NCBI RefSeq assembly: GCF_900102965.1
Contig: NZ_FNGM01000006.1
Coordinates: 186,001 to 250,000 of the forward strand
From: Paenibacillus jilunlii
Lineage (GTDB): Bacteria > Bacillota > Bacilli > Paenibacillales > Paenibacillaceae
Reading direction: 5' to 3'
Length of the DNA: 64,000 bases
This document shows positions 28,787 through 45,404 of this stretch, one piece after another; position 1 is the stretch's first letter; the number at the start of each line of letters is the position of its first letter. Below the pieces are notes generated by a model, which worked only from the letters and a program-made list of their open reading frames with translations, ran no database searches and had not been told where the DNA came from. The translations under genes were made by a program, and so were the position numbers.

Positions 28787-30835
28787 TTATTTAATCTTGA
28801 ATTGCTCAAGCAAGCTCTGCAGTTCCTGAACCATTGAACTTAATGATTTAGCGGAGAATGAAACCTCCTCCATGGAAGCCTGCTGTTGTTCACTGGCTGC
28901 AGCAACATTTTGGGTGGCATCTGACGCTTCTCCAGAAATGCGGGCAAGCTGCTCCATAGTAGCGCTTATTTGCTGGGAGCCGGCAGACATTTGCTCGGAG
29001 ACTGCAGATACCTCCTGAATTTGGTTAACAATTTGTTGAATTTCCAGTACAATTCCGTTGAATGCTTCTCCTGCGTGTTCCACGAGCACAGTGCTGGAAT
29101 TAACCGCTTTCGTCCCGATTTCAACCGATTGTACCGCAGCTTGCGTCTCCCCTTGCATTTCTTCAATAATCTCTCGAACCTTCCCAGCAGAATCTTTGGT
29201 TTGTTCGGATAGCTTACGAATTTCCGCAGCAACTACAGCAAATCCCTTGCCATGCTCGCCAGCGCGCGCTGCTTCAATCCCGGCATTCAAGGACAGCAGA
29301 TTGGTTTGTGTACTTATCCCGCTTATCACATTGATTATATTGCCTATATCTATAGAACGCTCTCTGAGCTGCTCCATATGCCAAGCCGTGACCGAGACAG
29401 AACGATTGGCTTCGTTCATATCATGGACTGCCTGCTGAATGATCTCATTCCCCTGCTCCGCCTGCTGTGAGGTGTTTTGTGAAGCGTCATGCAAAACGGA
29501 CGAAGACTCAGAAATCCGTTGGATGCCCATTGCCAGTTCCTCAAGCGACCTGGCACTTTCTTGTGTCCCCGCAAGCTGCGTCTCGGCACCGGCAGCCACT
29601 GCTTGAATGGTATGGGCAATATCCTCAGCCACTATACTTGTCTGGTCTGCACTAGCCGTCAGCTCTTCCGCTGTAGAGGCAACATGCAAGGAATGTTCGG
29701 TGACTTTAGCCATCATTTTATTCAGAAGATTGCTTGTATAATTTAAATTTTCTGCCATCTTACCAAATTCATCTTTCGTTTTCACCTCAATGGAATAGGT
29801 GAAATCCCCTTGAGCTAAGTGCTCGGCCATAGAATTTACACGATTCGTATGAGCGGTCAGGTTACGAGTGTAGAGTAGAATAACCACCACAATCAGGACC
29901 ATGCCAATAATTAGAAAGATTAGAGTTTGCAGAAGCAATGAATTCACTTTTTCTTTAAGCTCTTGATCCGGCAAAGCTAGAGCGACAATCCATTCTGTCT
30001 GCTCCAGCTTTGTGAAATAGACATGAACGAGTCCTTCTGAAGAAGTATAGGTTGCACCGCCCTTTCCATCTTGCAAAATCGTTTTCGCTAAAGTGGATAC
30101 GACTGGGTCCTGCTCCTCCTGAAGTTTTACCTTCATGATTTTATCCGTCTCAGGTCCGGCTAAATAAGTACCGTCTTTATCAAGCATAAACGCCCATCCA
30201 CTGTCACCTACATGTGTCTCTGTGATGATATTTTGCACAGTATCCAAATTTATGTCTCCGGTTGCTACTGCAACGAACCGTTCTTGGTCATCATACACAG
30301 GAACTGACGCCGTAACCATGGTTGACTTCGTTTTTTCATCATAGAAAGGGGCAGTATATTGTATTTCTTTTTGGTTGGTTGCAATTTTATACCATGCTTG
30401 TGCTGGATAATTGTAGCTGGGGTCACTATAGTCATGTGTAAGGGTTATTTGATTCTGATCGCGAAAGGCATAGGAAGAAACAAACTTTGTATCAGCTTTA
30501 TATAAATTAGGCTCAAAATAAATGCCTACACCGAAGGTATCTTTGTTGATTTCCAGCGAGTTCTTGAGAGTTACATCATAATCCATCAGGCTCAGCTTGC
30601 TGTAATGACCTTGAATGGATTTTGCTATCGTTTCCGGCACTCTACCGTGAGAGGTTATCCGATTCTGAATGCTTTGACTGGTATTTGCCAGTTGCTCCTC
30701 CATGCTGTTCTCCGTCTGATCAAGCAATAAACTATGGGATTTAAAGATTACTGCAGAAGATACTCCAATAACAATTACAAGTAAAAGCGGCATAATGAGA
30801 AGTAGTGTTTTTGCTTTAATGCTTCTTAGTTGCAT
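28787..30835 (-). CDS. Methyl-accepting chemotaxis protein with extracellular Cache domain
   Basis: 682 residues. Transmembrane helix about 8-30, an extracellular double-Cache sensor to about 300 ([54 protein letters not shown]), second membrane helix about 303-325, HAMP, then the coiled-coil signalling domain with the conserved tip [22 protein letters not shown]. Such Cache domains bind small metabolites, often amino or organic acids. No che genes are nearby, so it is an orphan receptor. Confidence 0.93.
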
Positions 30836-30985
30836 CTAATATGGCCCCATTTCCTGATGATAGTTAACTAACCTATGTATTACATCGACATTGTTCGACA
30901 TATTTTTAGAGGTATTTTTTAACATTCCCTTCAACCTTCCCATTCTGCTTACGACTAAAGTTATGAGTGTTCCCGGTTGATACAT

Positions 30986-31014
30986 AAAAAAAACGGAGCA
31001 GCTCAGAAAGCTCC
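30986..31014 (-). terminator. Terminator after the BlaR1-like gene
   Basis: GGAGC / GCTCC stem (30995-30999 with 31010-31014) followed on the minus strand by eight T. It lies 80 bases beyond the stop at 31098. Confidence 0.6.
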
Positions 31015-31097
31015 CCCGGCAATGATCTGTATATTCAAGAAACCAAGCTTACCTTATATTATACGCAAGTCCCTTCGGTAAGCTGTTGGAGACTGCC

Positions 31098-32522
31098 TTA
31101 GTTTGCATTTTGAAATTTCAGGCCATCCTCACCAAGTTCAAACCCATACACTTTGGCTAAAGCCTGGAGTTCATGTTCATCCACTTCAGTAATATTAGTT
31201 ACCTTGTTGTCTTTATCTCTGATGACTTTGAAATCGGCCGTACCGTCCCCGTCATAATAAAATTTGTTGAACTTTCCTTCATTTTTAAGATCCTGGTCCA
31301 TGAACAGCCGGACATGCTTGCCATTGTACAGAAATCTGTCTTGGGCTTTGTCATAAGTCAGTCCATAGGCCACATAATCCTTCAGTGCATCATAGTTAAA
31401 GTCGCTCACTGTTCCGTCTTCCTGCGATGAGGCTGCCGCAGCAGCTGAATCACCTCCAGCGTCGCCTCCGCTTTCCACAGCGTTCATTTCAGCAGCGTTT
31501 TTTGTATTCACGCTGTTTTCTTCTCCGCTCGTTTGTTCTGCAAACGCAGACACCGCTCCCAAAATTAAAATGAGCGAAATGGCTGCCGTCACTACCGTCA
31601 GTTTTTTCAATTTCATAATCGACACGATCCTTTCTTTAGTCGCATTTTTGCTGAAGCCACTGTACAGGGGAGTGAATCTCCCTTTTTGTTCTGCTACCGC
31701 CAAGAGACATAAGGCGTAGTCCGCCTTGTGTTCGGCACCAAGCTTGCGGATCACTCTTGCATCGCACACCATTTCCATATCCCGGTTCAGGTAGAGATAC
31801 ATCAGCCAGACCAGCGGATTGAACCAGTGCAGGCATAGGGCAGCGGCTGCAGCCAATTTCCATACCGCATCAAAGTGTCTGATGTGCATGTATTCATGAG
31901 TGAGAATATAATCCATTGCGGATTCGTTGCCAGTATCCAATGATTTGGGCAAAATAATCTTCGGGTGCAATATTCCGAAGGTGATCGGCGTATCAATCCG
32001 GTCATAGGTCAATATCGTCAAAGTCCGCCGCAATGGATGTTTGGTTAACCAGGCTTCGATAACGGGATGGCTCCCCTGCAGAGGCAGCGCTGTCCGCAGC
32101 TCCCTTTTGCTTCTGTAATAGATCACCACTAGCGCCATAAGCAGTAGAGCAGCACCCCCAAGCCATAAGGTCGTCAGAAGCTCTGGCTCTAACATCGGCT
32201 CCGGCTTCGGCCCCCCGCCTGAATCTGCCGGAACCCCAATATCACGGGTCAGCAGCCCGGTGTTCAGGGCAGTGTGCTCGGACATCTGGAATACTGCTGC
32301 TGTACGTGCATTCACGTGGTTGGTCGTTTCAGCGATTTCAGCCGGTAGGGATAACTGCGGAAGAATGGGAAAAGAAACTGGAACCAGCAGTCTGGCAACC
32401 ACAATTCCCCACAGAACGATAAATAACAACCTGGGTAATTTGTGGATGGCCACAGACCGCAGCAGGATAACAAGAACGATCAGCACACTCGCCGAAATAC
32501 TCATCCGTAGGATATCCACCAT
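31098..32522 (-). CDS. BlaR1/MecR1-type M56 membrane metallopeptidase
   Basis: 474 residues. Membrane helices at the N-terminus and again near 120-140, a gluzincin-type zinc site YILTHEYMHIRHFDAV with a downstream Glu region, and a fourth helix near 310-325. The C-terminal ~140 residues outside are not a penicillin-binding sensor. They are a short domain (DYVAYGLTYDKAQDRFLYNGKHVRLF...DGDGTADFKVI) typical of bla-type regulators in Paenibacillus. It would cleave or relieve BlaI, whose gene ends 7 bases upstream. The inducing signal is unknown and probably not a beta-lactam. Confidence 0.85.
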   Translation of the reverse strand: MVDILRMSISASVLIVLVILLRSVAIHKLPRLLFIVLWGIVVARLLVPVSFPILPQLSLPAEIAETTNHVNARTAAVFQMSEHTALNTGLLTRDIGVPADSGGGPKPEPMLEPELLTTLWLGGAALLLMALVVIYYRSKRELRTALPLQGSHPVIEAWLTKHPLRRTLTILTYDRIDTPITFGILHPKIILPKSLDTGNESAMDYILTHEYMHIRHFDAVWKLAAAAALCLHWFNPLVWLMYLYLNRDMEMVCDARVIRKLGAEHKADYALCLLAVAEQKGRFTPLYSGFSKNATKERIVSIMKLKKLTVVTAAISLILILGAVSAFAEQTSGEENSVNTKNAAEMNAVESGGDAGGDSAAAAASSQEDGTVSDFNYDALKDYVAYGLTYDKAQDRFLYNGKHVRLFMDQDLKNEGKFNKFYYDGDGTADFKVIRDKDNKVTNITEVDEHELQALAKVYGFELGEDGLKFQNAN

Positions 32523-32529
32523 CGCCGCC

Positions 32530-32889
32530 TCAGCTTAAGCTTTCCACAATTTTTTTCAGTTTGTCGATGTCTTCTTTGCTCAGGTTCTTCTCATTGAGGA
32601 ACGCCGAAAAAAACATCCCCGCCGAACCGTTGTACATTTTGTTGATTAATTCCTTGGTTTCATAAGTCTGCACCTGCTCTTTGGGAATCAGAGCGGTGCA
32701 GACAAAGCCCGGATCTGTTCGCTGGATGGCTCCCTTGACGATCAGCTTTTTGATTACCGTGTAGGTCGTATTTCTGTTCCAGCCCGTTTCCCGGTTCAAG
32801 ACCGCCGCCAGATCACCTGCCGCCAGCATCCCTTCTCTCCACAAAATTTCCATCACTTTTAACTCGGAATCATACAGTTTGATCTCCAT
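32530..32889 (-). CDS. BlaI/MecI/CopY family repressor
   Basis: 119 residues starting at ATG 32889 with AGGGAGG upstream. The longer open frame would begin within the operator and is rejected. The winged helix reads YDSELKVMEILWREGMLAAGDLAAVLNRETGWNRNTTYTVIKKLIVKGAIQR. The C-terminal dimerisation helix is where the partner protease normally cuts. It lies in one operon with the BlaR1-like gene and faces two strong dyads upstream. Confidence 0.9.
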   Translation of the reverse strand: MEIKLYDSELKVMEILWREGMLAAGDLAAVLNRETGWNRNTTYTVIKKLIVKGAIQRTDPGFVCTALIPKEQVQTYETKELINKMYNGSAGMFFSAFLNEKNLSKEDIDKLKKIVESLS

Positions 32890-32909
32890 ATACCAGCCTC
32901 CCTTGCATT

Positions 32910-32962
32910 GACTACTGAAGTAGTCATAAGTCAATACTACTCCAGTAGTCACCTATTGTCAA
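32910..32962 (-). promoter_or_regulatory. blaI promoter with two BlaI operators
   Basis: On the minus strand there is a TTGACA -35 (32957-32962), a 17-base spacer and a TAGTAT -10 (32934-32939). Dyad ACTAC-TCCA-GTAGT (32936-32949) fills the spacer. Dyad GACTAC-TGAA-GTAGTC (32910-32925) lies at the transcription start. Centres are 25 bp apart. The TACTAC/GTAGTA form is the known BlaI/MecI recognition type, so tight autorepression is expected. Confidence 0.85.
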
Positions 32963-32996
32963 TTATATCCTTTTAATTCTTGTTTATTCCAAATGA

Positions 32997-34757
32997 TTAG
33001 GCGTACAAATAGCTTTGTGCCGAATACATCTGATAATATTTCCCCCTCCGGTTCATCAGTTCCGCATGCGAACCAAATTCACAGATTTCTCCCTGGTCAA
33101 ATACATAGATCTTATCGCACAGCATGGTCACGCCTAAGCGGTGTGAGATCATAATCGCAGTTTTATTTTCACACAGTGCCGAGAATTCCTCATATATTTG
33201 TGTTTCAACCTTAGGGTCCAGGCTGGCTGTAGGTTCGTCCATAATCAGAATTTCGGTTTCCGCCCGGCTGAGCGCCCTTGCTATCGCCAGTCTCTGCCAT
33301 TGGCCGCCAGACAACTCCACATCGTTGTTCTCAAGCTGCCCAAGCTGGGTATCCAGACCCTGCGGCAGGTTGCTGATAAAGGAATCCATATTGAATATCC
33401 GCAAAGATTGTTTGTGAAAATCTTCTCCGAAATTTCCCGCTTTGATATTATCCGCTACCGAAAACTGGTATTTGATAAAATTTTGGAATACGCAGACCGT
33501 CTTCGTCCGGAAATCATCAATCACGTCAGCCAGCGGGTCACCGCCGATCAAAACCTCGCCTGAAGTCGGCTTGTACAGGCCCAGCAGCACATTTATAAAA
33601 GTGGTCTTGCCGGATCCGTTTTCCCCAACCAAGGCAATTTTCTCGCCTTTATTTATCGTTATATCAATATTTTTCAAAGTATGGGTCTGGCTATTGGGAT
33701 ATTTGAAATCGACATGTTTGAAATGAATGGTGGGTGCGTCAACAATTTTCTTGTGCCCGCCCCCGGTATCTTCAGGAATATCCAAAAAGTCCATCATGTC
33801 TTCCATATACAACGTATAATTGTTCATCGAACTGATCTTATTGACCATACTGCTCAAGCCGTCTGTTATGGCGTGCATTGAAGTGATCACCAGCATCACA
33901 TCGCCAATACTCATTCTGTTCTCAAGAACGCCTATACAGGTCATCAACAGACAGATTCCCAGCGCAATGTTCCGGAATATATCGACAAAAGCTCCTCCCA
34001 GCGTATAATGCAGCAGCAATCTGAACTTCTCTTTCCATAAATCCTTCCTGATCTCTTCGGTCCGGTCATTAAAATAATCAATCAGCCCGAACATCCGGAT
34101 CTCCTTGGCATATCGTCTGCTTGTCAGCACATCGTACATATAGTTCAAACGGCGCAGCGGCTTGCTTTGTTCAACGGCCTGAAAATAGCTTTTCTTTCCC
34201 TGGGCATTCATCAGCAGCAAATAAGGGACAGTAGCGAGTACCGCAATCAAGGGGAAATACAGGTTGATGTTAATCAGCAGCAGAATGTAGGAGATGATGG
34301 AGAACACAGGAAGGACCACAGACAATGAGTTATTGATATAGGATAATATGCCTTTATTGACATTGGACTGCACCCTGTCGAGCAGATCATAGACCGCCGG
34401 ATTCTCCAATTGCTCCATAGAAATGACGGACAGCTTCTTATTCACTTGTCTGATGAATTCCCGGTTGATATTATATTTCAGGCGGTTGTTGATGTGTGCC
34501 GTAATATGCTCAAACCATTCCAGGAGGATCTTCAGCACGGTATAACCGGCGATAATGACCACCAGCTTGTGCGTCACGGCGGATGCCGAATGAACGAAAG
34601 CGAGGTCATCTATTAAAAGCTTAAACAGCCAGGTCCCGAGAGGGGCCAGCAGCGCGCTGAACGCCATAAGCCCCAGTGAAAAGTATAGCTCTTTGGTGCA
34701 AAACAGCTTGACGATCATCATAATGTTGCGGACATGAATCAGCAATTTATTTTTCAT
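32997..34757 (-). CDS. ABC exporter half-transporter B of the RiPP locus
   Basis: 586 residues: six membrane helices over about 1-310, then an ATPase domain with Walker A GENGSGKTT, signature LSGGQWQRLAIARAL and Walker B ILIMDEPTASLD. I start at ATG 34757, preceded by CAGGAGATCAGG; it overlaps the upstream transporter by 4 bases (ATGA). It has no N-terminal C39 peptidase domain, so it does not itself trim a leader. It probably pairs with the upstream half-transporter to export the modified peptide. It is the last gene of the agrB-to-transporter strand. Confidence 0.87.
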   Translation of the reverse strand: MKNKLLIHVRNIMMIVKLFCTKELYFSLGLMAFSALLAPLGTWLFKLLIDDLAFVHSASAVTHKLVVIIAGYTVLKILLEWFEHITAHINNRLKYNINREFIRQVNKKLSVISMEQLENPAVYDLLDRVQSNVNKGILSYINNSLSVVLPVFSIISYILLLININLYFPLIAVLATVPYLLLMNAQGKKSYFQAVEQSKPLRRLNYMYDVLTSRRYAKEIRMFGLIDYFNDRTEEIRKDLWKEKFRLLLHYTLGGAFVDIFRNIALGICLLMTCIGVLENRMSIGDVMLVITSMHAITDGLSSMVNKISSMNNYTLYMEDMMDFLDIPEDTGGGHKKIVDAPTIHFKHVDFKYPNSQTHTLKNIDITINKGEKIALVGENGSGKTTFINVLLGLYKPTSGEVLIGGDPLADVIDDFRTKTVCVFQNFIKYQFSVADNIKAGNFGEDFHKQSLRIFNMDSFISNLPQGLDTQLGQLENNDVELSGGQWQRLAIARALSRAETEILIMDEPTASLDPKVETQIYEEFSALCENKTAIMISHRLGVTMLCDKIYVFDQGEICEFGSHAELMNRRGKYYQMYSAQSYLYA

Positions 34758-36490
34758 ATGACCTGATCTCCTGTATCGTACCATTTGGCCTGATTCATAA
34801 AGAAACTGCAGTATTCGCCATTGAGCTGCATCAACTCAGCATGGGTGCCCTCTTCAACGATCTCCCCATGCTTCATAAACACGATTCTGTTGGCCAGCTT
34901 GGCGATTCCGATTCTGTGCGAGATCAGTACAACGCTTTTGCCGCGAAAATATTTGCCGATATTGCGGAATTGCTGGATCTCCGACAGCGCATCCAAAGAG
35001 GCGGACGGTTCATCGAATATGATAAAATCGGCATCGCGCATAAACGCCCGGCTGATCGCGACCTTTTGCCACTGCCCTTCGGACATGTCGATTCCATCGG
35101 CATCGAATTTTTTGCCCAGTATAGTATCCAGCCGGTTAGGATATTGCTGAATGACATGGTTGATTTGGCCTTTAACGGTTGCTTCCTTGATCTTTTCGTT
35201 GTCATTTATGTTAGCGACATCGCCTATGCCGACATTATCCCGTATAGAGAATTCAAATTTGGCATAATCCTGAAATGCCGCGGTGGCGGAGGGACAATTC
35301 CTCCGGACGATGCCCTCAGTAGGCTTCAGCAGGCCGGCCATAATTTTGGCCAATGTGCTTTTTCCGCTGCCGTTCTCACCAACGAGCACGATGCTTTCGC
35401 CTTTGCCGACGCGCAGATTGATATCCTTTAATGCTGCGGAATGATCACCATACGAGAAAGACACATGCTGCAGCTCCATAACCGTTTTTGCTCTGGCTAA
35501 GGCAGGGTCCGGTCCGGCTGGAATCCCGGATTCTTCAGGTGTGATCAGCGCTCTGAATTCTTTGATATAGATCTTATTTTTTTGGGCTTCGGAGAAAAAC
35601 TCTGCAAAGGCATTGATGCCCACGATGATCTGTCCCTGGCCCTGGCTCAGCACGATCAGTTGATCGACCGTCAGCGTTGTCAGCGCCACACCATAACACA
35701 TCACCAGCAAAATGCTATTCTCCAGGCCAATCATCAGGCCCGACCATATACATCCGATTACCGTCCATCTTTTGCTGAAGGTCAGATCAATATCCCTGAT
35801 CTCGTCAAATTTGCCGAGCCGTTTCGCCTCCAGCCAATCGAAAATTTTGAAGCTTCGGATTTCTTTCTGGTTGCTTCTGTCCTGCATAAGATTGCTCAAA
35901 TACTTCAGTTTGCGGTCCTCGTGCTCCTGCCTTTTCATCAAACCGATGTGTTCTTTCGTGTTTTTCTTCACAAAATAGTTGTAGAGCAGTCCAAGCACAA
36001 TAAATGACAGTAAATAGAGAACACCCAGCCTGACTATAATCAGAGCAGACATACAAAAGCCGGCAATGGACCCCAGAAAATGAAATACGTCATTAACGGC
36101 ATTGGTAAGTTTAAACCATAACGTATCCTTGGCCCTTTCGATTTGCAGCAGATAATCCGCCTGATCCAATTTGCATAAATCTGCCTTGGCAATGGCGTCG
36201 AACAGACTTCTCTGCAGCATGGCACCGACCTTGTTCTCAAGCAATTCTATGAAGAGTAGCGAAAAAGAATATTGAATATTCTTCAATGAATAGACGAGGA
36301 TATAGGCGAGGATAAGTCCGGCGATGGCCAGAATTTCAGACTGATGGCTAAGGCTGACAATAATCCGCTGAATCAGAAGCAGCTCTAAAGGCTGCAGCGA
36401 GTACATTAATATGTAGAGCAGGAGAATGGATACCATAGTCACCGGCTGATGTCTGAAGTAGATCTTTAAGAACCATATGTATTCCTTCAA
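34754..36490 (-). CDS. ABC exporter half-transporter A of the RiPP locus
   Basis: 578 residues from a TTG at 36490, which has AGGGGA just upstream. An ATG at 36523 lies inside a terminator-like hairpin and has no good site. The N-terminal membrane domain is followed by an ATPase with Walker A GENGSGKST, signature MSEGQWQKVAISRAF (SEGQ in place of SGGQ) and Walker B FIIFDEPSASLD. The altered signature suggests an asymmetric heterodimer with the next gene. No C39 peptidase domain is present. It is separated from the precursor gene by 101 bases holding the hairpin. Confidence 0.87.
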   Translation of the reverse strand: MKEYIWFLKIYFRHQPVTMVSILLLYILMYSLQPLELLLIQRIIVSLSHQSEILAIAGLILAYILVYSLKNIQYSFSLLFIELLENKVGAMLQRSLFDAIAKADLCKLDQADYLLQIERAKDTLWFKLTNAVNDVFHFLGSIAGFCMSALIIVRLGVLYLLSFIVLGLLYNYFVKKNTKEHIGLMKRQEHEDRKLKYLSNLMQDRSNQKEIRSFKIFDWLEAKRLGKFDEIRDIDLTFSKRWTVIGCIWSGLMIGLENSILLVMCYGVALTTLTVDQLIVLSQGQGQIIVGINAFAEFFSEAQKNKIYIKEFRALITPEESGIPAGPDPALARAKTVMELQHVSFSYGDHSAALKDINLRVGKGESIVLVGENGSGKSTLAKIMAGLLKPTEGIVRRNCPSATAAFQDYAKFEFSIRDNVGIGDVANINDNEKIKEATVKGQINHVIQQYPNRLDTILGKKFDADGIDMSEGQWQKVAISRAFMRDADFIIFDEPSASLDALSEIQQFRNIGKYFRGKSVVLISHRIGIAKLANRIVFMKHGEIVEEGTHAELMQLNGEYCSFFMNQAKWYDTGDQVI

Positions 36491-36513
36491 TGGGTATCCC
36501 CTGCCTTTCAAAG

Positions 36514-36550
36514 AAAAGAACATGATTATGTAGAATAACCATGTTCTTTT
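36514..36550 (-). terminator. Attenuator-like hairpin between precursor and exporter genes
   Basis: Perfect 11-bp stem (AAAAGAACATG / CATGTTCTTTT), extended by four more pairs after one mismatch, and followed on the minus strand by CTTTG. It is AT-rich and the T tract is part of the stem, so partial termination is likely. That would let the precursor be made in excess over the exporters. Confidence 0.65.
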
Positions 36551-36591
36551 TGCATAATATGGATATTACCAATAATGCCATAGACCAGTTT

Positions 36592-36738
36592 TTACCAATT
36601 TCCGCATTTAAAGTTACTCTTACAGGAGTAGTTACCACAGTTGAATGTTTTTGGACAACTGAAGCCTGAAGTACATGCTGCAGGAGTGATCATGGAATCA
36701 GCACTTGCTTTTTCAATCATCGGTCTGATATAGCTCAT
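36592..36738 (-). CDS. Cys-rich RiPP precursor peptide
   Basis: 48 residues, with AAAGGAGGTG 6-8 bases before ATG, one of the strongest ribosome sites in the window. Residues 1-21 (MSYIRPMIEKASADSMITPAA) are the putative leader. Residues 22-48 hold five Cys (22, 28, 34, 39, 45), spaced 5-6 apart, each followed 3-4 residues later by an aromatic (Phe26, Phe32, Tyr37, Phe43, Trp48). Equivalently there are four aromatic-X-Cys triplets: FSC, FNC, YSC, FKC. Such regular cores next to a radical SAM/SPASM enzyme point to thioether (sacti/ranthi) or three-residue cyclophane crosslinks. The gene starts 34 bases after the maturase stop. It is too short for ordinary gene finders and easily missed. Confidence 0.85.
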   Translation of the reverse strand: MSYIRPMIEKASADSMITPAACTSGFSCPKTFNCGNYSCKSNFKCGNW

Positions 36739-36772
36739 TTTCTTCACCTCCTTTCAAGTGGCTAGCCCGTTT

Positions 36773-37867
36773 TTACTGGGGCACCAATGTTTTTCTGTTT
36801 TTGTTCAGCTCGGATACATAATATTTCGTTCTCGCTTTGCAGCAGCCATCGGTATCCTGAATGGAACCCCCGTTTGCCACGGCGATTGCCACACAGCCCT
36901 TGCCGCAATTGTGATTCCAAATACAGGTCTGGCACTTGTTCATATAGGTCTGTCCAACTTGAAAAAAACGGATCAGATTAATCATCTCGGGGGATTGCAG
37001 CATCGAAGACAGGCTGGTCTGATTGACATTTCCGATTGAATATTGGACATCGGTAAATAATTGGCACAGAAATACATTACCGGAAGAGTCAATTCGCGGT
37101 GTTAAAGGAATTCTATCTGCTTCCTCAGTCACTCCACTCAATAAAGGACAGGCTCCTGTAAAATCATCGGGAAGTGTAATTTTGACGCCGCTGTTGATCA
37201 AATCCACAATTTTCGCATTTTTCTCCAGACTCTCCACAAGCGCTGATTTTTCCAGGATGTCCAGGTATAAGTCATTTTTATTATTTTCACTTCGGCCCAG
37301 GCTGCTCAAGCCGGCAATCTCGGCCTGGGGTATCTTTTTGTCAGCGACCATTGTCAGCAGATTAACGATGTCATCTTTGTTGAAGCTGGTAAGCACGCTG
37401 CGGATTAGAATACGTTCGCTCATGCCGGCTTCAATTAAATGATCCAATCCCTGCATCGTTTTGTTAAAGCTGCCGCGTCCGCATAATTGGTCATGGATTT
37501 CAGCACGCGACCCGTTTACGCTTAATTGGAGGGCAACTTTATAGGATGCAAACTTCTCAGCTACTTCCTTTGTAATATAAGTGCCGTTCGTGATCACCAG
37601 CACCATGCCAAAATGTTTCTTTTGCAGCTCATCCATAAAATCCCAGAATTCAGGATGCGTAGTCGGCTCTCCGCCGGAAATGGTAATGCTTGTATCGGGA
37701 TTATCCGGCAGATCATTAATGATATTCATAAAGGTCGGCTTATCAATCTGACTTTGCAATACACCGGATTCGTTATAGCAATGCAGACAGCGCAGGTTGC
37801 AATTGGAGGTGATTTCCAAATAACAACCGCCTAATTTAAAACTTTCGGCTGGCGACAAAAATTCCAC
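36773..37867 (-). CDS. Radical SAM/SPASM peptide maturase
   Basis: 364 residues from a GTG with GAGGTG upstream. The [4Fe-4S]-SAM motif is CNLRCLHC (Cys23, 27, 30), followed by ISGGEPTTHPEF. The C-terminal SPASM-type Cys set includes CPLL, FLCQ and CQTCIWNHNCGKGC, then a final CC pair, which would bind auxiliary clusters. Enzymes of this kind install carbon-sulfur or carbon-carbon crosslinks in ribosomal peptides. A separate PqqD-like protein upstream would present the precursor. Neighbouring precursor and exporters support the role; the exact bond formed cannot be read from sequence. Confidence 0.93.
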   Translation of the reverse strand: MEFLSPAESFKLGGCYLEITSNCNLRCLHCYNESGVLQSQIDKPTFMNIINDLPDNPDTSITISGGEPTTHPEFWDFMDELQKKHFGMVLVITNGTYITKEVAEKFASYKVALQLSVNGSRAEIHDQLCGRGSFNKTMQGLDHLIEAGMSERILIRSVLTSFNKDDIVNLLTMVADKKIPQAEIAGLSSLGRSENNKNDLYLDILEKSALVESLEKNAKIVDLINSGVKITLPDDFTGACPLLSGVTEEADRIPLTPRIDSSGNVFLCQLFTDVQYSIGNVNQTSLSSMLQSPEMINLIRFFQVGQTYMNKCQTCIWNHNCGKGCVAIAVANGGSIQDTDGCCKARTKYYVSELNKNRKTLVPQ

Positions 37868-37876
37868 ACAAACACC

Positions 37877-38155
37877 TCATTTCCTGATTTTCACAAATCC
37901 TCTTTGCTCCAGTTCTTCAAATGCGCCAAGACAGTCCGTGATAATATCGCTCAATACTAATCCATCCTTATCCAGGCATTGGTCATAGAGCAAGCCGGCT
38001 ACTTCAGAAACGGTTCTCCCGTTGCAGTGTTCCCATAAATATTTGGCTGTCTGGTTCAAAAAGAACATCTCGTTATTGCGGTCCAGCACCAGCGATTCCT
38101 CACCCAAATCCTCATTGATTACATTCACTTTAGACAATAGCGTATTTGCGTTCAT
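37877..38155 (-). CDS. PqqD-like RiPP recognition element protein
   Basis: 92 residues with the PqqD winged-helix pattern: a beta strand ESLVLDRNNEMFFLNQTAKYLWEHCNG, then TVSEVAGLLYDQC and a terminal EELEQRGFVKI strand. These stand-alone domains bind precursor leaders and deliver them to the radical SAM enzyme. The gene ends 9 bases before the maturase start. In many pathways it is fused to the maturase; here it is free. Confidence 0.88.
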   Translation of the reverse strand: MNANTLLSKVNVINEDLGEESLVLDRNNEMFFLNQTAKYLWEHCNGRTVSEVAGLLYDQCLDKDGLVLSDIITDCLGAFEELEQRGFVKIRK

Positions 38156-38195
38156 TCACTCACATCCTCATAGGAAATTACACCGAAGTGTTGCG

Positions 38196-38339
38196 TTATT
38201 GCAGCTTTTGCAATTTTTTTACTTCTTCCGGCATTTCCGGCTCATGAGCTATCCACCAGCAAGTTGTATTGGCCCCCAGCACAGCAAACATCCCGGCCAG
38301 CATCGTGAGCGATTTCAAGGGCCATTGGACAAATTTCAT
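38196..38339 (-). CDS. agrD: AgrD-type cyclic autoinducer peptide precursor
   Basis: 47 residues. Start ATG 38339 overlaps the agrB stop by 4 bases and has GGGGGAG upstream. Layout: an amphipathic N-terminal helix (MKFVQWPLKSLTMLAGMFAVL), the signal region NTTCWWIA, and the acidic tail HEPEMPEEVKKLQK. The EPxxPEE tail and the Cys five residues before it match staphylococcal AgrD (for example CDFIM-DEPKVPEE). A thiolactone between Cys27 and Ala31 is predicted, with Asn24-Thr-Thr as a possible exocyclic tail. Processing would be by the adjacent AgrB. Confidence 0.9.
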   Translation of the reverse strand: MKFVQWPLKSLTMLAGMFAVLGANTTCWWIAHEPEMPEEVKKLQKLQ

Positions 38340-38914
38340 TGATTCTCCCCCTTTAATTGGATCAGCACAGAAAGCTGAGAAATGAGGCAGCCGCATAGAC
38401 TGGCCAAAATGGCGGTACCGGCCAGCTGCAGCAAAATCATGGACAGGATAAAAGCGTAAAATGAAATATGTACAGTAACAGATATCTTCTGCAGCGTGCT
38501 GCGGCCGGTTGTATCCGCTTGTCTACCCTGCCGGGACATCCGGTTCAAACAGACAAACAGAACTACAGAGCCTCCAAACAACAGGACCACAAAAGAGTTC
38601 ACACTCATGGGAGGCAGCATATCCACAAAAACCAGGGTCAGTATAAAAATAGTGACTGAAATGAAATAACAGGTTTTGAATGATTTCGCATGATAACCCC
38701 CGCCAAAGCTTCGGCAACCAATAATGGCTCCCAGCCAGGCCAACGCTTCAGGTATTTCCCTGAGCCAGACAGAAATGGCGATCATAGACATGGCGATGAT
38801 TGTAACCTCGATCATGGCCTGCAGCCCGTAACGGATGACCGGCGCATTCTTTTCTTCCACAATGCCTTGTTGGACGCTTCGCAACGTGATCAGTTTCACA
38901 ATATAATCTATCAT
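38336..38914 (-). CDS. agrB: AgrB-type autoinducer-processing membrane protease
   Basis: 192 residues with about six hydrophobic segments. The family core RSFGGGYHAKSFKTC carries the catalytic His75 and Cys82, at nearly the same positions as in Staphylococcus AgrB. It cuts AgrD and forms the thiolactone in the membrane. It is the first gene of the minus-strand series that runs through agrD and the RiPP genes. Confidence 0.93.
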   Translation of the reverse strand: MIDYIVKLITLRSVQQGIVEEKNAPVIRYGLQAMIEVTIIAMSMIAISVWLREIPEALAWLGAIIGCRSFGGGYHAKSFKTCYFISVTIFILTLVFVDMLPPMSVNSFVVLLFGGSVVLFVCLNRMSRQGRQADTTGRSTLQKISVTVHISFYAFILSMILLQLAGTAILASLCGCLISQLSVLIQLKGENQ

Positions 38915-38944
38915 TCACATCCCCCAAAACGAATATAGCGTATT

Positions 38945-38984
38945 TGTTAATTAAATGGAACATTATGTATGTTAATGGTATAAT
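38945..38984 (+). promoter_or_regulatory. Divergent agr promoter region
   Basis: The space between agrB and the response regulator holds a TATAAT (38979-38984, plus strand) with a poor -35, and two TGTTAAT repeats 25 bases apart (38945 and 38970). These may be activator sites, but the spacing differs from classic AgrA boxes (about 21). A tentative call. Confidence 0.3.
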
Positions 38985-39063
38985 AGGACATGCAAACGCA
39001 TTCTTTTGTCAGGTTTGCTTCCAAATCTTACATAAACTTCACTAGATGAGAGGAGAGAGAGAT

Positions 39064-39816
39064 TTGTTCCACGTGGGGGTGTGCGATGATGAAGTCGGGA
39101 TTCGCAACGAGCTGCAGCGGTACTTTTTGCAACTTTCGGTTACGACAAACTATTCATTTGATGTCCATTATTTTCCCTCCGGCGAAAAGCTCCTACAGCA
39201 TTATAAAGCAATGCAGGGAGAGTACACCTATCACCTGCTGATTCTGGATGTCGAAATGAACGGCATTAGCGGACTTGAGACGGCCCGGCAAATCCGTTCC
39301 TTGCCAGACCGTGACGTACAAATTATGTTTTTGACCAGCTATCCCGAATACATGATGGAAAGCTTTGACGTTCAAACCTTCCAATACCTGCTCAAACCGG
39401 TTACATATGAATTATTCAAGAAAAAAACACTGAAGCTGTGCAGCTACATCATTTCCTCCTCGAACCGTTTTTTCACCATCAAGGTGGAAGACGGGCAAAT
39501 CGTGTTGAGGAAGCCCGAAATTATCGCCATTGTCAAAATCAAGCATTCACTCGCCCAAAACAAGCTTAAAGTACTAACAGCAACTCAAGAGTACATGATA
39601 AACGGCACTCTGCAGGAGTATTCGGACAAGCTGGGCAGCCTGTTCCTGATGGTTCACCGTTCCATTATCGTTAATCTGGAGCATGTCCGCAGATTTACCG
39701 CCACCACCGTTGTGATGTCCAATGAAGAAGAATATCCCATTGGCCGTTCCCAATCGAAGGCCATCAAGGATATCTATGCCCAATACGTGCTGGAAGAATT
39801 AAAAGGGAGAGGGTAG
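39064..39816 (+). CDS. LytTR response regulator (AgrA-like)
   Basis: 250 residues from TTG 39064, with AGGAGAG 7 bases before it; the ATG at 39046 would place this site inside the gene. The receiver domain has the acidic pocket (CDDE), the phospho-Asp in LLILDVEMNG, and FLTSYPEY with a later LLKPV Lys. The C-terminal LytTR DNA-binding domain spans about 140-245 (VHRSIIVNLEHVRRF, YPIGRSQSKAI). Divergent from agrBD. Expected to be phosphorylated by the next gene's kinase and to switch on the agr/RiPP strand. Confidence 0.92.
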   Translation: MFHVGVCDDEVGIRNELQRYFLQLSVTTNYSFDVHYFPSGEKLLQHYKAMQGEYTYHLLILDVEMNGISGLETARQIRSLPDRDVQIMFLTSYPEYMMESFDVQTFQYLLKPVTYELFKKKTLKLCSYIISSSNRFFTIKVEDGQIVLRKPEIIAIVKIKHSLAQNKLKVLTATQEYMINGTLQEYSDKLGSLFLMVHRSIIVNLEHVRRFTATTVVMSNEEEYPIGRSQSKAIKDIYAQYVLEELKGRG

Positions 39817-39833
39817 CCATACTGCCTACTGCA

Positions 39834-41111
39834 TTGTTCACCGGGACAACTTTGCTGGAATTGATTCTGTTGAACCGCTACTTCACTGTTCTTTTTCATA
39901 ATCCAGGCCGAAAGCTGCAGATCATTATACTTCACTACTTATTGGCCGGAGCAATCTTGTTTACATCGTCCGTTTCCTTTTTCCCCATGCCTGTCACCGG
40001 GCTTTTGACCATGGCCAGTACCTTTTTAATTGCCCGGCTCTACGCTGTCCGGCCCGGTTCCCAGCTGATTTTTAGCGCCCTGTACCTTATCCTGGGATTT
40101 ATCGCGGAGTCGCTGTCTTATTGCTTAATCCTTGCCATTCGTCCGGCGCACGGGGTAAACCAATTATCCAGGCTGGAGCAGCGCCTGCTCATCTTGTTCA
40201 TTTCTGCTTTGATTATGCTGCTGTTCATCAACTTCATCCGTTTGATCAAGCGGGGGCAGGACTATAAAATCAGTAAAAGCTATTACTTCATCATGACGCT
40301 GATTATCTTAATAAGCCTGCTCATTTTGAATACGCTGTTTTTTTACTCCAGAATAAATCTTTGGTACATCCTGTCCGTGATCGGGATTCTCGGCATCAAT
40401 TTTCTGATCATCTTCCTGTTCGACAGGATGATTGAAATATTTAGGCTGGCAGAGGTGAATTACCGGCTGCAAAGACAAATGGACGCCCAGGATATCAGTT
40501 ACAAGCAGACGGTACATTCATTTATGGGCATCAAACGAATTATTCATGACACCAATAAGCAATTAGTATACATACGTGCCTGTATTGAAGCAGGCCATGC
40601 TCTGGAAGGCATTGAACATATCAACAGGATATTGCATCAAATAGAAGCTTCCTGCCAAAAAGTAACCACCGGCAACCTGGCGATTGATGCCTTAATCAGC
40701 AATGCACTTAGCATCGCTTATGACCGCCGGATTGCCATGGAACACAAAATCCATATTATCGCTGCAGAAATTAACATTGACCGCTATGATTTATGCATTG
40801 TTTTAGGAAACCTTCTGGATAATTCCATAGAAGCTGCACAGCAGGTTAGCGGGACCGAAAACAGGTTCATTCAACTCCATATCCATTCGAACAACAATGC
40901 ACTGGTTATTTATGTTGGCAATTCCATGGCCGATCCCCCCCTGTCAGAGCCGCTGAGCCACAAAGACAATCCCGGGCTGCACGGAATCGGTTTAAGCAAT
41001 GTGCAGCGGACGGCCGACAAATATGGAGGTCATTTAAAAACAACGGCCAAAAATGGAAAATTCGAAACCGTGGTTGTGCTTCCTTATCCAAAGATCAGCG
41101 ATTCTATTTAA
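39834..41111 (+). CDS. AgrC-like GHKL sensor histidine kinase
   Basis: About 425 residues. Six to seven membrane helices in the first ~215 residues, then a dimerisation helix with His in KRIIHDTNKQL, an N box LGNLLDNSIEAAQ and a G box GLHGIGLSNVQR, as in AgrC and other HPK10 kinases. It would bind the AgrD-derived ring outside the cell. Start is uncertain: TTG at 39834 is used, but a CTG at 39822 sits better after GGGAGAGGG. Its last 8 bases overlap the convergent aldo/keto reductase gene. Confidence 0.9.
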   Translation: MFTGTTLLELILLNRYFTVLFHNPGRKLQIIILHYLLAGAILFTSSVSFFPMPVTGLLTMASTFLIARLYAVRPGSQLIFSALYLILGFIAESLSYCLILAIRPAHGVNQLSRLEQRLLILFISALIMLLFINFIRLIKRGQDYKISKSYYFIMTLIILISLLILNTLFFYSRINLWYILSVIGILGINFLIIFLFDRMIEIFRLAEVNYRLQRQMDAQDISYKQTVHSFMGIKRIIHDTNKQLVYIRACIEAGHALEGIEHINRILHQIEASCQKVTTGNLAIDALISNALSIAYDRRIAMEHKIHIIAAEINIDRYDLCIVLGNLLDNSIEAAQQVSGTENRFIQLHIHSNNNALVIYVGNSMADPPLSEPLSHKDNPGLHGIGLSNVQRTADKYGGHLKTTAKNGKFETVVVLPYPKISDSI

Positions 41112-41973
41112 TAAAAACCTTCATCAGCATATTGTAAAGCGGGTGAATCATATACCCCGTTGGATTAACCGCATATCTTGTGCCTGTATCCAGCTGGCTG
41201 ATCTTGTCCATGTCTTCCCCGCTCAGGGCAAAGTCAAAAATCTCACTGTTCTCCTTGATTCTTTGGGGATTGGAGGATTTGGGAATCAGAATAATGCCCC
41301 GTTCCAGGTGCCAGCGTAAAATAACTTGAGCCACCGTTTTATGATGCTGCGCTGCAATCCTTTTTAGTTCACTGTGCTGATGCAGAGCCTGGTTTCCTTG
41401 CCCCAGTGGAGCCCAGGCCTCGTGCAATATATGATGTTTCTTAAGATAGTCATGCAGTTCATTTTGCGGAAACTCGGGATGGGTCTCAATCTGATTGATC
41501 ATCGGCGGTATTGTGGCATGCTTCATTAGATGTTCAAGATGCTGAATCTCGAAATTTGCCACGCCAATGACTTTGATCCTCCCTGCTTCATATAACTCCT
41601 CCATGGCTTTCCACGTTTCAATATAATCCGGTGATGCGAAATGGATTAAATACATATCTAAGTAGGCTGTATCCAGCCTCTGGATCGTTCGTTCAAAGGC
41701 CTTCTTTGTTTCCTTATATCCATGGTCTGTGTTCCAGACTTTGGAGGTGATAAAAAATTGCCCGCGCGGGATTTGACTCTTATGAATCTCTCTGCCCAAC
41801 GCTTCTTCATTCCCGTAGATTCTGGCGGTGTCAAAATGCCGGTAGCCTACCCCGATCGCCTCACTGATCGCAGTTTTGAACTCCTTCTCCTTCGTTATTT
41901 TGTAGACTCCAAAACCCAATTGGGGAATTGCAACTCCGTTGCTTGCATGTATTACTGCTGATTGCAGATTCAT
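41104..41973 (-). CDS. Aldo/keto reductase
   Basis: 289 residues, NADPH-dependent TIM-barrel reductase. The catalytic set is readable: Asp and Tyr in HFDTARIYGNEEALG, Lys in FITSKVWN, His in MYLIHFASP. The cofactor loop IPKSSNPQRIKEN is present. AAAAGGAG precedes ATG. Similar enzymes reduce reactive aldehydes. It is probably regulated by the adjacent Rrf2 protein through the inverted repeat at 42007. Confidence 0.92.
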   Translation of the reverse strand: MNLQSAVIHASNGVAIPQLGFGVYKITKEKEFKTAISEAIGVGYRHFDTARIYGNEEALGREIHKSQIPRGQFFITSKVWNTDHGYKETKKAFERTIQRLDTAYLDMYLIHFASPDYIETWKAMEELYEAGRIKVIGVANFEIQHLEHLMKHATIPPMINQIETHPEFPQNELHDYLKKHHILHEAWAPLGQGNQALHQHSELKRIAAQHHKTVAQVILRWHLERGIILIPKSSNPQRIKENSEIFDFALSGEDMDKISQLDTGTRYAVNPTGYMIHPLYNMLMKVFIK

Positions 41974-42006
41974 TTGAATGCTCCTTTTCTGATTATACGG
42001 TATATT

Positions 42007-42027
42007 CTAAATATTTATTATATTTAG
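42007..42027. promoter_or_regulatory. Candidate Rrf2 operator
   Basis: Perfect 8-bp inverted repeat CTAAATAT-N5-ATATTTAG, 34 bases upstream of the aldo/keto reductase start and just past the Rrf2 gene. Confidence 0.45.
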
Positions 42028-42054
42028 TTTGAGCAAAAAAAGAGGTTAACCTAT

Positions 42055-42471
42055 TTAAGCCAATAAATCCGTTAACCTTACTTCTTTTAACTGATTCTGC
42101 ATTGCCAGCTCCGCTGCCTCCAGACTGTCTGCGATTCTTTGCTTAACCTCGTCCACTTCTTTTCCTTGCAGCGTTACATCCGTATGGAGCTTGAATAAGG
42201 CTTTCCCTGGCTCCACCGCCAGAAAAACATCCAATAACGTAATTTCAGATAACGGCCTCGCCAGTAAAATACCACCCTTTGCCCCTTCTTTGGCGATCGT
42301 CAGCTTGGCATTGTTCAAGTTGCGGATGACTTTTACCGTAGTGGGCACAGGAATATTAAGCTGCTCCGAAATCATTTTGGTGGATAAAAAGTTAGTACAG
42401 TTCTCCTCTGCGAGGCTATGGATATAGAGCAAAATGGATACCCCGTGTGATAACGCTGTCGAGTATGACAA
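42055..42471 (-). CDS. Rrf2 family regulator (YwnA-like)
   Basis: 138 residues. The N-terminal winged helix has LSTKMISEQLNIPVPTTVKVIRNLNNAKLTIAKEGAKGG. The cluster-binding Cys trio of IscR/NsrR is missing (only one Cys, near residue 25), so it is a non-Fe-S type such as YwnA/CymR relatives. It lies just upstream of the aldo/keto reductase on the same strand, and the two are probably co-regulated. Confidence 0.88.
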   Translation of the reverse strand: MSYSTALSHGVSILLYIHSLAEENCTNFLSTKMISEQLNIPVPTTVKVIRNLNNAKLTIAKEGAKGGILLARPLSEITLLDVFLAVEPGKALFKLHTDVTLQGKEVDEVKQRIADSLEAAELAMQNQLKEVRLTDLLA

Positions 42472-42598
42472 TAGAATTCATCCTAACCTTTGGTTTCTGA
42501 ATATACTATATATCTTTTATGTTCAGATAGCAATTACATAAGAAAACGGCCGCATTATCCTTCACCGGACAGTGCAGCCGCTTGGCATTCCATTTATG

Positions 42599-43156
42599 TT
42601 ACCTATATGAGTCATGTGTTGGACGAAACAGGTCTTCCTCCGAGGCTCTGACCATCGAAAAGTGTTCGACATTATAGTGCCCGTGCAGCGTACTGTTATG
42701 ATGCCTGATGATTTGTTCTGCGCTCAGAACATCGCTGTCTGTTGTAGAATGTCCATCACCAACCAAGGTGACATCCAAATGACTGACGGTAGCCGCCCGC
42801 ACTGAAGTATCGATACAATGCTGTGTTTTACAGCCCATGATAACTACATGTTCTACCTGCTGCTCTTTCAAATATTGCAGAAGTCCGGTGCCGTGAAAAG
42901 CATTCGTTGCTTTTTTATCAAACACTTTGGCATCAGCAGGCACACGAATTTCATTATGCACCTGAAAGCCTGCACCTTTCCCCCCGGCAACATCAAGATC
43001 CCTAACGAATACGGCCTCAACACCGAATTGTTCAGCTTTTTCAATCACTGTATTAATAGTCTGGATCAGCTGATCTTTATGGAATACCGCACTTTCCTTT
43101 TGGTTCCCATCCATTAATTCCTGCTGCGCATCGATGATTAATAATATCTGATTCAA
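42599..43156 (-). CDS. Isochorismatase-like cysteine hydrolase
   Basis: 185 residues from a TTG start with AAAGGAG upstream. Catalytic triad: Asp9 (LLIIDAQQ), Lys in VFDKKATNAF, Cys in MGCKTQHCIDTSVRAA. The family includes nicotinamidases and N-carbamoyl hydrolases as well as isochorismatases. With no siderophore synthesis genes near, the substrate is open. Confidence 0.88.
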   Translation of the reverse strand: MNQILLIIDAQQELMDGNQKESAVFHKDQLIQTINTVIEKAEQFGVEAVFVRDLDVAGGKGAGFQVHNEIRVPADAKVFDKKATNAFHGTGLLQYLKEQQVEHVVIMGCKTQHCIDTSVRAATVSHLDVTLVGDGHSTTDSDVLSAEQIIRHHNSTLHGHYNVEHFSMVRASEEDLFRPTHDSYR

Positions 43157-43328
43157 ATGATGGTTCTCCTTTCAAATGGCCTATTTATTGGATGATTGGG
43201 CCCGGTTTATGCTGGCCCGATGTCCAGAATCGGAGAATCTGCCTAAATTTCACGCAACCTGGAGCGTCCCTGGCCGTATGAACTACAGTAAACTTGGCAC
43301 ATACGATAACTCAAGAGGAGTGATGCGA

Positions 43329-43769
43329 ATGAAGAAATACGGTTTAAGTCTTCTGCTATTCATCTTGCTGGTTGTACCGGGTTGCGGGTTTGCGGAAAAG
43401 GTGGAAAACAGCGTCAATTTTGCCACCGATACAGCTACTTACATGCAAACATTGACGGAGTTCGGACAAGAAATGGATACGCTGGCTGCCGATGCTGCCA
43501 CGGATACGCAGGCCAGGGAGGCATTGACAGACAGACTCGTTGCACTCAAGGAACAGATTATCCAATATGCTGATCTTCAGGTACCTGAATATGCAGCAGA
43601 CCTGCACCAATCGATTGTGGGGTACAATGACACGCTGCAGCAAGGACTGGATCAGGCAATAACTAACCTGGAGCAAGGAAAAGCCGCCTTCGAATCGACA
43701 GGCATTCCCGAGACGATCAACAAGGTGAGCGAGCTGTTGAACCAGATCACCCAGCTAACCCCGCAATAA
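43329..43769 (+). CDS. Small lipoprotein (DUF6376-like)
   Basis: 146 residues from ATG 43329 (GAGGAG 8 bases upstream); the frame continues upstream but without a plausible start. Signal peptide with lipobox VPGC (Cys19). The mature part is helical with the ENSVNFATDTATYMQTLTEF start seen in DUF6376 lipoproteins of Bacillales (recalled, not searched). Role unknown; membrane-anchored on the outer face. Confidence 0.7.
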   Translation: MKKYGLSLLLFILLVVPGCGFAEKVENSVNFATDTATYMQTLTEFGQEMDTLAADAATDTQAREALTDRLVALKEQIIQYADLQVPEYAADLHQSIVGYNDTLQQGLDQAITNLEQGKAAFESTGIPETINKVSELLNQITQLTPQ

Positions 43770-43780
43770 CAGCAACATAT

Positions 43781-43824
43781 AAGCGCTCAAGGCATGGCAG
43801 CACATGACTTGTGCGCTTTTTCTT
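43781..43824 (+). terminator. Terminator after the lipoprotein gene
   Basis: AAGCGC-T-CAAG pairs with CTTG-T-GCGCTT around a 16-base loop, followed by TTTCTTTTTT. Confidence 0.7.
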
Positions 43825-43841
43825 TTTTGCCCGTCGAGGCT

Positions 43842-44366
43842 CTATTTCAACCTTTTACGGATCATTCGGATCTGCCCTCTGTGGTTAATCTCATCTTCAA
43901 AAACATGAAACCACATAAAATAGTAGTTTGCCGGTTGGTCACCCCAGAATGGTTCCTCCTCGTATAACCACTCGTCATCCACAGTTTGGAACCATTCAAG
44001 CGTCGTCCGTCTTACTGCATCCAACTGATCCATATAATAACTCAATTCATTGCCCTTAATTTGCCCTCGTCCTTCTTCACCTAAATTTAACGCCGCTCCC
44101 CATCTGGCCATTTCTTCTTCAGATAAGTCTCTTCCTTCAAAGGTTGCAACTTGGTAGGCATATTCTACAGCGGCAAAATGTAATAATAACCCGCCGATTG
44201 AATTGCTCTGAGAATCGATCAAATAATCCAACTGGTCAACGCTTAGTCCTTTAACAGATTCAATAGTTGTAAATCTTGCGTAATTCATCATAGAGATCAA
44301 ACGGCTGATTTGTGGTGAATACCCGGGAATATCGGTAATAAGATAGAGCTTATCGGTATGTATCAT
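43842..44366 (-). CDS. DinB/YfiT-like four-helix metal-binding protein
   Basis: 174 residues, all helical. The DinB-type metal His residues appear in LLLHFAAVEY and in the C-terminal WFHVFEDEINHRGQIRMIRKRL. Bacterial members act as thiol-dependent transferases or are of unknown role. GGGAGG precedes ATG. Confidence 0.82.
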   Translation of the reverse strand: MIHTDKLYLITDIPGYSPQISRLISMMNYARFTTIESVKGLSVDQLDYLIDSQSNSIGGLLLHFAAVEYAYQVATFEGRDLSEEEMARWGAALNLGEEGRGQIKGNELSYYMDQLDAVRRTTLEWFQTVDDEWLYEEEPFWGDQPANYYFMWFHVFEDEINHRGQIRMIRKRLK

Positions 44367-44570
44367 TTAAGATCCTCCCTTTAATGTTGTTCTCCCCCCA
44401 CTTGATAATCAATAACTATACGACTCCTCAAGTAGCCTATACGATGATTAAAATCATTTTACCATATTGATTGATACAGAAAATGGTAGAAAACTTTTTT
44501 AGAAAATCTTTTTCAGGGGCACACACCCATCCTGTGTTCTTGTCATACATAGATTATAAGGAAGGGCGGG

Positions 44571-45392: not shown

Positions 45393-45404
45393 CCCTTTGC
45401 AGGA

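Follow-up and report, generated by a model that had tools for sequence, protein, structure and literature searches.

A probable radical SAM RiPP cluster of Paenibacillus jilunlii with an apparently new precursor family of alternating cysteine and aromatic residues

The ranthipeptide freyrasin of Paenibacillus polymyxa, formed by the PapA/PapB system, contains tandem short rings of the Cys-X3-acceptor type, as described in the part of PMC9413430 covered here. According to the same part of that paper, PapB accepts Cys-Xn-Asp with n from 0 to 6 and gives complete conversion for n from 1 to 5; an earlier, stricter view of PapB spacing is given in the part of PMC8172795 covered here. This latter part also describes the thioethers of subtilosin A, a sactipeptide of the SboA/AlbA system, which use Phe22 and Phe31 as acceptors. 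F-to-A mutants of the acceptors fail, and exchange between Phe and Tyr is tolerated (PMC8172795, same part).

The locus considered here lies in the window, i.e., the whole stretch of 64,000 nucleotides of P. jilunlii DNA that was analysed, and comprises the following genes:

32997..34784, minus strand: ABC transporter half of 595 aa, whose Pfam matches include no peptidase domain
34754..36523, minus strand: ABC transporter half of 589 aa, whose Pfam matches include no peptidase domain
36592..36738, minus strand: precursor peptide of 48 aa with a leader (about 1-21) and a Cys/aromatic core (22-48)
36773..37867, minus strand: radical SAM/SPASM maturase of 364 aa with a GTG start, assigned by Pfam, NCBIfam and alignments
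37877..38155, minus strand: stand-alone PqqD-like protein of 92 aa (PF05402, 9e-8)
38196..38396, minus strand: AgrD-type cyclic lactone autoinducer precursor (TIGR04223, 50 bits, cut-off 19)
38336..38914, minus strand: AgrB-type processing protease (PF04647, 1.3e-19)
39046..39816, plus strand: LytTR response regulator, divergent
39834..41111, plus strand: AgrC-like GHKL histidine kinase with a membrane half (PF14501, 5.4e-26)

On the minus strand, the order of transcription is AgrB, AgrD, PqqD-like protein, radical SAM/SPASM enzyme, precursor, first ABC half and second ABC half; the LytTR regulator and the GHKL kinase are divergent from this operon. The original prediction concerned a 48-residue ORF behind the radical SAM/SPASM and PqqD-like genes, and its coordinates, strand and residue numbers were all confirmed. 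The unit is broader than that prediction, as it also includes the exporters, the kinase, the regulator and the agr-type genes. In all six complete clusters discussed below, the exporters are immediately followed by a BlaI/BlaR1-type (M56) pair (31098-32952 in the window). It is treated as flank because two genomes (G070 and G091) have BlaI/BlaR in a 19-kb retrieved stretch devoid of cluster genes. In the window, the kinase is separated from the isochorismatase gene by aldo/keto reductase and Rrf2-type genes (41104-42471), which the stretches retrieved from two relatives with the cluster (G033 and G027) did not show. Positions 30000-46000 of the window gave nothing at the gathering score in Rfam.

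The precursor translates as MSYIRPMIEKASADSMITPAACTSGFSCPKTFNCGNYSCKSNFKCGNW, with the ATG at 36738 and the end of the stop codon at 36592. Its ATG follows the maturase stop (36773) after 34 bases and is immediately preceded on the 5' side by the ribosome site AAAGGAGGTG. The automatic ORF call was 51 aa from a GTG start; the 48-aa frame was adopted because the ribosome site favours ATG over GTG. All four aromatic-X-Cys triplets noted originally (FSC, FNC, YSC and FKC) are present in the sequence. Taken as the repeating unit, however, aromatic-X-Cys accounts for four of the five Cys and leaves the fifth outside, whereas Cys-X2/3-aromatic covers all five. The units are Cys-X3-Phe, Cys-X3-Phe, Cys-X2-Tyr, Cys-X3-Phe and Cys-X2-Trp, so that an aromatic follows every Cys at +3 or +4, and aromatics are the sole class of residue recurring once in each unit of residues 22-48.

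The alternation of Cys and aromatic residues in the core exceeds chance. Since the shuffle statistics were chosen post hoc, once the core pattern was known, the counts gauge the regularity of the core rather than the frequency at which such ORFs arise: among 200,000 shuffles each of the 27-residue core and of the 48-mer, an aromatic at +3 or +4 of all five Cys appeared in 1 and 3, respectively, at least four Ar-X-C in 245 and 71, Cys gaps even within one in 2519 and 450, and the first two properties jointly in 0 and 0. In NCBIfam and Pfam, no model was reached by the precursor at its cut-off, the only matches listed being KCGN_DNA_rpt (E 3.6) and Lustrin_cystein (E 0.24). The expectation that it belongs to no characterised family thus holds within these two libraries, and no description of this precursor was found in the literature searched (titles and abstract openings, with the searches partly covered). 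Uncharacterised radical SAM RiPPs are very common, and an orphan precursor is therefore not surprising by itself.

The maturase has a CX3CX2C motif at C23/C27/C30 and SPASM Cys at 240, 268, 312, 315, 321, 325 and 342/343, with Pfam matches to Radical_SAM (6.6e-23) and SPASM (3.6e-8). C23, C27, C30, C240, C268, C312, C315, C321, C325 and C343 are invariant in eight sequences, two of which are at 27-29% identity. With these motifs, with the PqqD-like protein, by its family a predicted leader-binding RRE, and with the precursor beside the maturase, the locus has the composition of the radical SAM RiPP-type cluster that had been proposed. Among the 25 of 88 NCBIfam matches listed for the maturase, the streptosactin enzyme StsB was highest (126.7 bits, cut-off 625), and the others included mycofactocin (122.9, cut-off 265), WgkB (95.3, cut-off 650), DynA (85.7, cut-off 450), PapB (77, cut-off 340) and AlbA (69.4, cut-off 850); CefB (NF038107) gave 41.2 bits at a cut-off of 600. 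As it scores far below every cut-off, the maturase is placed outside each curated family scored among the matches listed. The cluster appears to represent a new precursor family within a known broad kind of natural product, the radical SAM RiPPs. SkfB was the top PDB match by sequence (1.3e-10). The AlphaFold model had a mean pLDDT of 62.9 with a poor SPASM part, and the fold search returned anSME, SkfB (third row), SuiB, 5why and EpeE among its matches; these matches reflect the common barrel and do not tell the chemistry, and the model itself says nothing about the bond. A defence reading was rejected, the viperin matches (4.4e-20) being read as the shared radical SAM barrel. The genome of the window (G000) encodes a further radical SAM enzyme with a 484-residue open frame at G000:C34:35973-36647 (L109), which gave 80 bits on CefB (cut-off 600).

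The maturase search of 100 genomes of the genus at E 1e-25 matched seven, six with the full-length enzyme and one with a fragment (G115). Complete clusters occur in six of these 100 genomes, within one Paenibacillus-type genus. With the maturase alignment, 394 genomes of the family yielded the same seven genomes and no others at E 1e-30. The five relatives with a full-length maturase all share the window's arrangement of precursor, maturase, PqqD-like protein, the two ABC halves and regulator. Scanning the collection with the maturase protein by itself produced no matches; the scan with the alignment produced one P. silagei locus (DSM 101953, which G088 matches) and 29 distant enzymes, and the 32 plasmid records contained only enzymes with less than 60% identity to the maturase.

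Three further genomes (G115, G101 and G030) have deletion remnants next to the BlaI/BlaR genes. In G115, the PqqD-like gene remains, as do maturase residues 1-97, which run into BlaR, and the regulator is in two pieces. G101 retains one near-complete ABC half (592-aa frame), the last 78 residues of the other half and the C-terminal half of the kinase. In G030, BlaI is reduced to its last 32 residues, the isochorismatase gene comes next, and no cluster gene was detected in 19 kb. Because the three junctions differ, the cluster can be inferred to be old in this clade, with at least three losses. The near-complete ABC half of G101 (L131 9836-11620) stands at a place without the precursor, maturase and PqqD-like gene; it might have an immunity role or be left from a recent loss.

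Conservation of the precursor beside homologous maturases had been set as a test of the original prediction, and the precursor adjoins the maturase, at the same place, in all six genomes with the full-length enzyme. The ribosome-site sequence GGAGGTGA and its place are the same in the six genomes, variable sites are distributed over codon positions 1, 2 and 3 as 8, 7 and 27, and the precursor is absent from the three remnants, all with the maturase broken or gone. The precursor of G033 has one additional C-terminal Ser. Judged by this comparison of sequences, the precursor ORF is a real gene under constraint, and there is very little doubt that it encodes the precursor of the adjoining radical SAM/SPASM maturase. 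All residues at the ten Cys/aromatic positions of the core are invariant in the six genomes, with synonymous variation in five of the ten codons; residue changes are found at 6 of the 17 other core positions and 6 of the 21 leader positions. Since the chance that six variable core positions (of 27) miss all ten is about 0.04, the invariance is weakly selective evidence; it supports a special role of these residues without proving it.

A candidate distant relative comes from another class of the phylum (G779, L096/L106), the maturase of which is 27% identical to that of the window over 348 columns. Directly behind it there is a 49-residue ORF with a P-x-IE motif in the leader and the core SSCPQTYTCYFC. 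This ORF was drawn from 21 ORFs with at least four Cys at L092-L105 and was not picked by the Cys/aromatic alternation filter. It shares SCP-x-T-(F/Y)-x-C and the P-x-IE leader motif with the window precursor but has four Cys and fewer aromatics, with two Ar-X-Cys (YTC and YFC) and one Cys-X3-Tyr among the four Cys. Upstream of the G779 maturase, a 125-aa protein had no Pfam match at E 0.1, and the next neighbour in the cluster is an NTP_transf_5 protein. The profile score of the ORF against the window family was reached by 8 of 5000 shuffles, with or without the Cys fixed, and its pairwise score by 2 of 5000, or 9 of 5000 with the Cys fixed. Over the 21 candidate ORFs, the shuffle rate comes to about 0.03, and the relationship of this ORF to the window precursor family is thus suggestive. 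Homology between the two, if real, would mean that such peptides can do without an aromatic at some of their Cys, and would speak against a strict one-to-one pairing: of the four Cys, only one is followed by an aromatic at +3/+4 and only two are preceded by one at -2. As both framings are kept in part in G779, neither Ar-X-Cys nor Cys-X2/3-aromatic wins. No second member of the G779 type was found among 72 genomes of its class at E 1e-30.

Wider scans were also performed. The precursor alignment matched 49 of 392 genomes of the order at E up to 0.05, namely the six and 43 others; the latter, at E 0.0066 or worse, were read as noise, and nothing precursor-like was seen at L080, which was inspected. 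The small-ORF Cys/aromatic scan of 84 loci of other radical SAM enzymes gave three matches, none precursor-like by eye. At L107 (G845, 4336-5654) and L097, a PqqD-like and radical SAM pair is accompanied by a nearby small ORF ending in WCFGCTNCNCN, and the maturase shows similarity to the ACGX-system model, at 170.5 bits with a cut-off of 400.

In the pathway proposed for the window cluster, the PqqD-like protein would present the precursor leader to the radical SAM/SPASM enzyme, which would join each core Cys to an aromatic (Phe, Tyr or Trp) via a thioether. The product would be a chain of small rings with the repeating unit Cys-X2/3-aromatic-X; the two ABC halves would export it, and a protease would cleave the leader. 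The unmodified 48-mer has a calculated monoisotopic mass of 5246.302 Da, from which five rings would give 5236.224 and four rings 5238.239. Leader binding and export are attributed on the basis of the protein families; the cross-link is hypothetical, and so are the carbon at which it would end and the direction in which it would run. A Cys-based thioether in the product is likely, and the chances that the maturase joins Cys to aromatic acceptors by thioethers are about even. Cys-to-aromatic thioethers are favoured because the aromatic alone recurs per unit, Phe is the acceptor in subtilosin A, and PapB has a wide range of ring sizes; as PapB acts over n from 0 to 6, the mixed X2/X3 spacing is no obstacle. 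The original idea of a core built as a repeat of one crosslinking unit would fit the invariance of all ten Cys/aromatic residues. Against aromatic acceptors, the aromatics could serve for binding or folding and the acceptors be Gly, Thr, Asn or Ser. The most specific version, with one enzyme forming five consecutive Cys-aromatic thioethers at the beta carbon or ring of Phe/Tyr/Trp and with agr control in some strains, is tentative. Equally doubtful is the small-ring ladder that it implies, with three aromatic residues and two ring sizes tolerated. No Cys-to-aromatic ladder cross-link was found in the literature searched, several of the searches being covered partly.

An ordinary sactipeptide or ranthipeptide, with Cys thioethers to non-aromatic residues and with the aromatics used for target or membrane binding, is a possible though less than probable alternative. 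The acceptors could then be the residues at Cys-3, which are Gly25, Thr31, Asn/Ser/Thr36 and Asn42, or else nested hairpin pairs could be formed. Such Gly, Thr, Asn and Ser residues speak for this reading, as do the top rank of StsB, a sactipeptide maturase, among the 25 of 88 NCBIfam matches listed and the position of SkfB as best PDB sequence match and third by fold. However, the maturase stays far below the StsB, AlbA and PapB cut-offs, no sactisynthase cut-off being exceeded among the matches listed, and position 36 of the Cys-3 series varies (N/S/T) with every aromatic fixed. The ranthipeptide rule of Asn three residues before each Cys (NxxC) also fails, as it fits just one or two of the five Cys per sequence.

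It is rather unlikely that the core forms three-residue Phe/Tyr-X-Cys cyclophanes, in which the aromatic ring would be carbon-carbon bonded to the Cys beta carbon and the thiols would stay free. The four invariant Ar-X-Cys triplets, and YTC and YFC in the aligned places of G779, would agree with them, and the carbon-carbon crosslinkers WgkB and DynA occur among the 25 of 88 NCBIfam matches listed. Yet their scores are far below cut-off and below that of StsB, C22 and W48 would be left unused, and we know of no three-residue cyclophane with Cys as the third residue. Still less likely is a disulfide or metal-binding peptide whose Cys are not radical-crosslinked and on which the maturase acts otherwise (e.g., by epimerisation, as EpeE does). 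Cys-rich peptides often bind metals and EpeE is among the fold matches of the maturase, but these matches mirror the common barrel and not the chemistry, and a regular series of five Cys, together with a complete SPASM enzyme and a PqqD-like protein, is more in keeping with thioether makers. A chance or non-coding ORF, conceivable for a short frame with no library model at cut-off, is highly improbable in view of the 8/7/27 variation over codon positions, the ribosome site and place kept in six genomes, and the loss of the precursor from all three remnants with the maturase broken or gone.

The full agr set (AgrB, AgrD, GHKL membrane kinase and LytTR) is present in three of the six complete clusters. 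AgrB and AgrD go together with the membrane half of the kinase: G000, G033 and G027 have all three, and a sister group (G114, G088 and G112) has none of them. AgrD probably starts at an internal Met (...NTTCWWIAHEPEMPEE...), and in the three genomes its core CWWIA is followed by HEPEMPEE. AgrB had no match genome-wide at E 0.001 in G114, G088, G112 and G115. The kinase of the agr-less complete clusters has 232-234 residues and lacks the membrane half, so that a soluble GHKL kinase half adjoining the regulator is retained; in the G115 remnant, the kinase match begins at residue 190. All six clusters share an intergenic stretch around TGTATGTTAATGGTATAAT, located where the two operons diverge. 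The position of the LytTR regulator suggests that it controls the RiPP operon. In the window strain, an agr-type loop of AgrD/AgrB signal, membrane kinase and LytTR regulator would switch on production at high cell density; such quorum control of peptide production is suggested by the gene families.

The observation is sound and the RiPP reading well supported, and the chemistry offered is hypothetical. Its points of interest are the aromatics arranged in tandem and the natural contrast between clusters with and without agr genes. Should every Cys prove to be linked to an aromatic, radical SAM thioether chemistry would be extended to tandem aromatic acceptors, and a peptide-stapling tool could be added alongside PapB. 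The related genomes, which have the same biosynthetic genes and differ in the presence or absence of the signal, its protease and the kinase membrane half, offer a naturally occurring comparison in which agr control of a RiPP could be examined.

By comparison of the sequences, the Cys-aromatic pattern matches none of the described families tested. SCIFF peptides have about six Cys in 45 residues, compared with five in the window precursor, for which no SCIFF model was listed at E up to 10. A Cys-every-fifth peptide model exists, and it did not appear among the precursor's matches (E up to 10); the CefB system (NCBIfam NF038107) is, by name, similar in its evenly spaced Cys, with the window maturase at the 41.2 of 600 bits given above. 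The StsB model, top among the 25 of 88 matches listed, has 466 positions and was matched only from 94, whereas the window has an enzyme of 364 aa and a separate PqqD-like protein. Subtilosin A is similar in its Cys thioethers with a Phe acceptor (PMC8172795, in the part covered here). It differs in having three long rings (Cys4/7/13 to 22/28/31) rather than tandem short ones, and in an RRE inside AlbA, on the model of which the window maturase scores 69.4 of 850 bits. The acceptor in freyrasin is Asp/Glu (Cys-X3-Asp), and as residues 22-48 contain no Asp/Glu in any of the six sequences, the freyrasin rule fails for the window core; the maturase is also below the cut-off of the PapB model. Freyrasin nevertheless resembles the window system in its tandem short Cys-X3-acceptor units, in its SPASM-type enzyme and in its origin from Paenibacillus.
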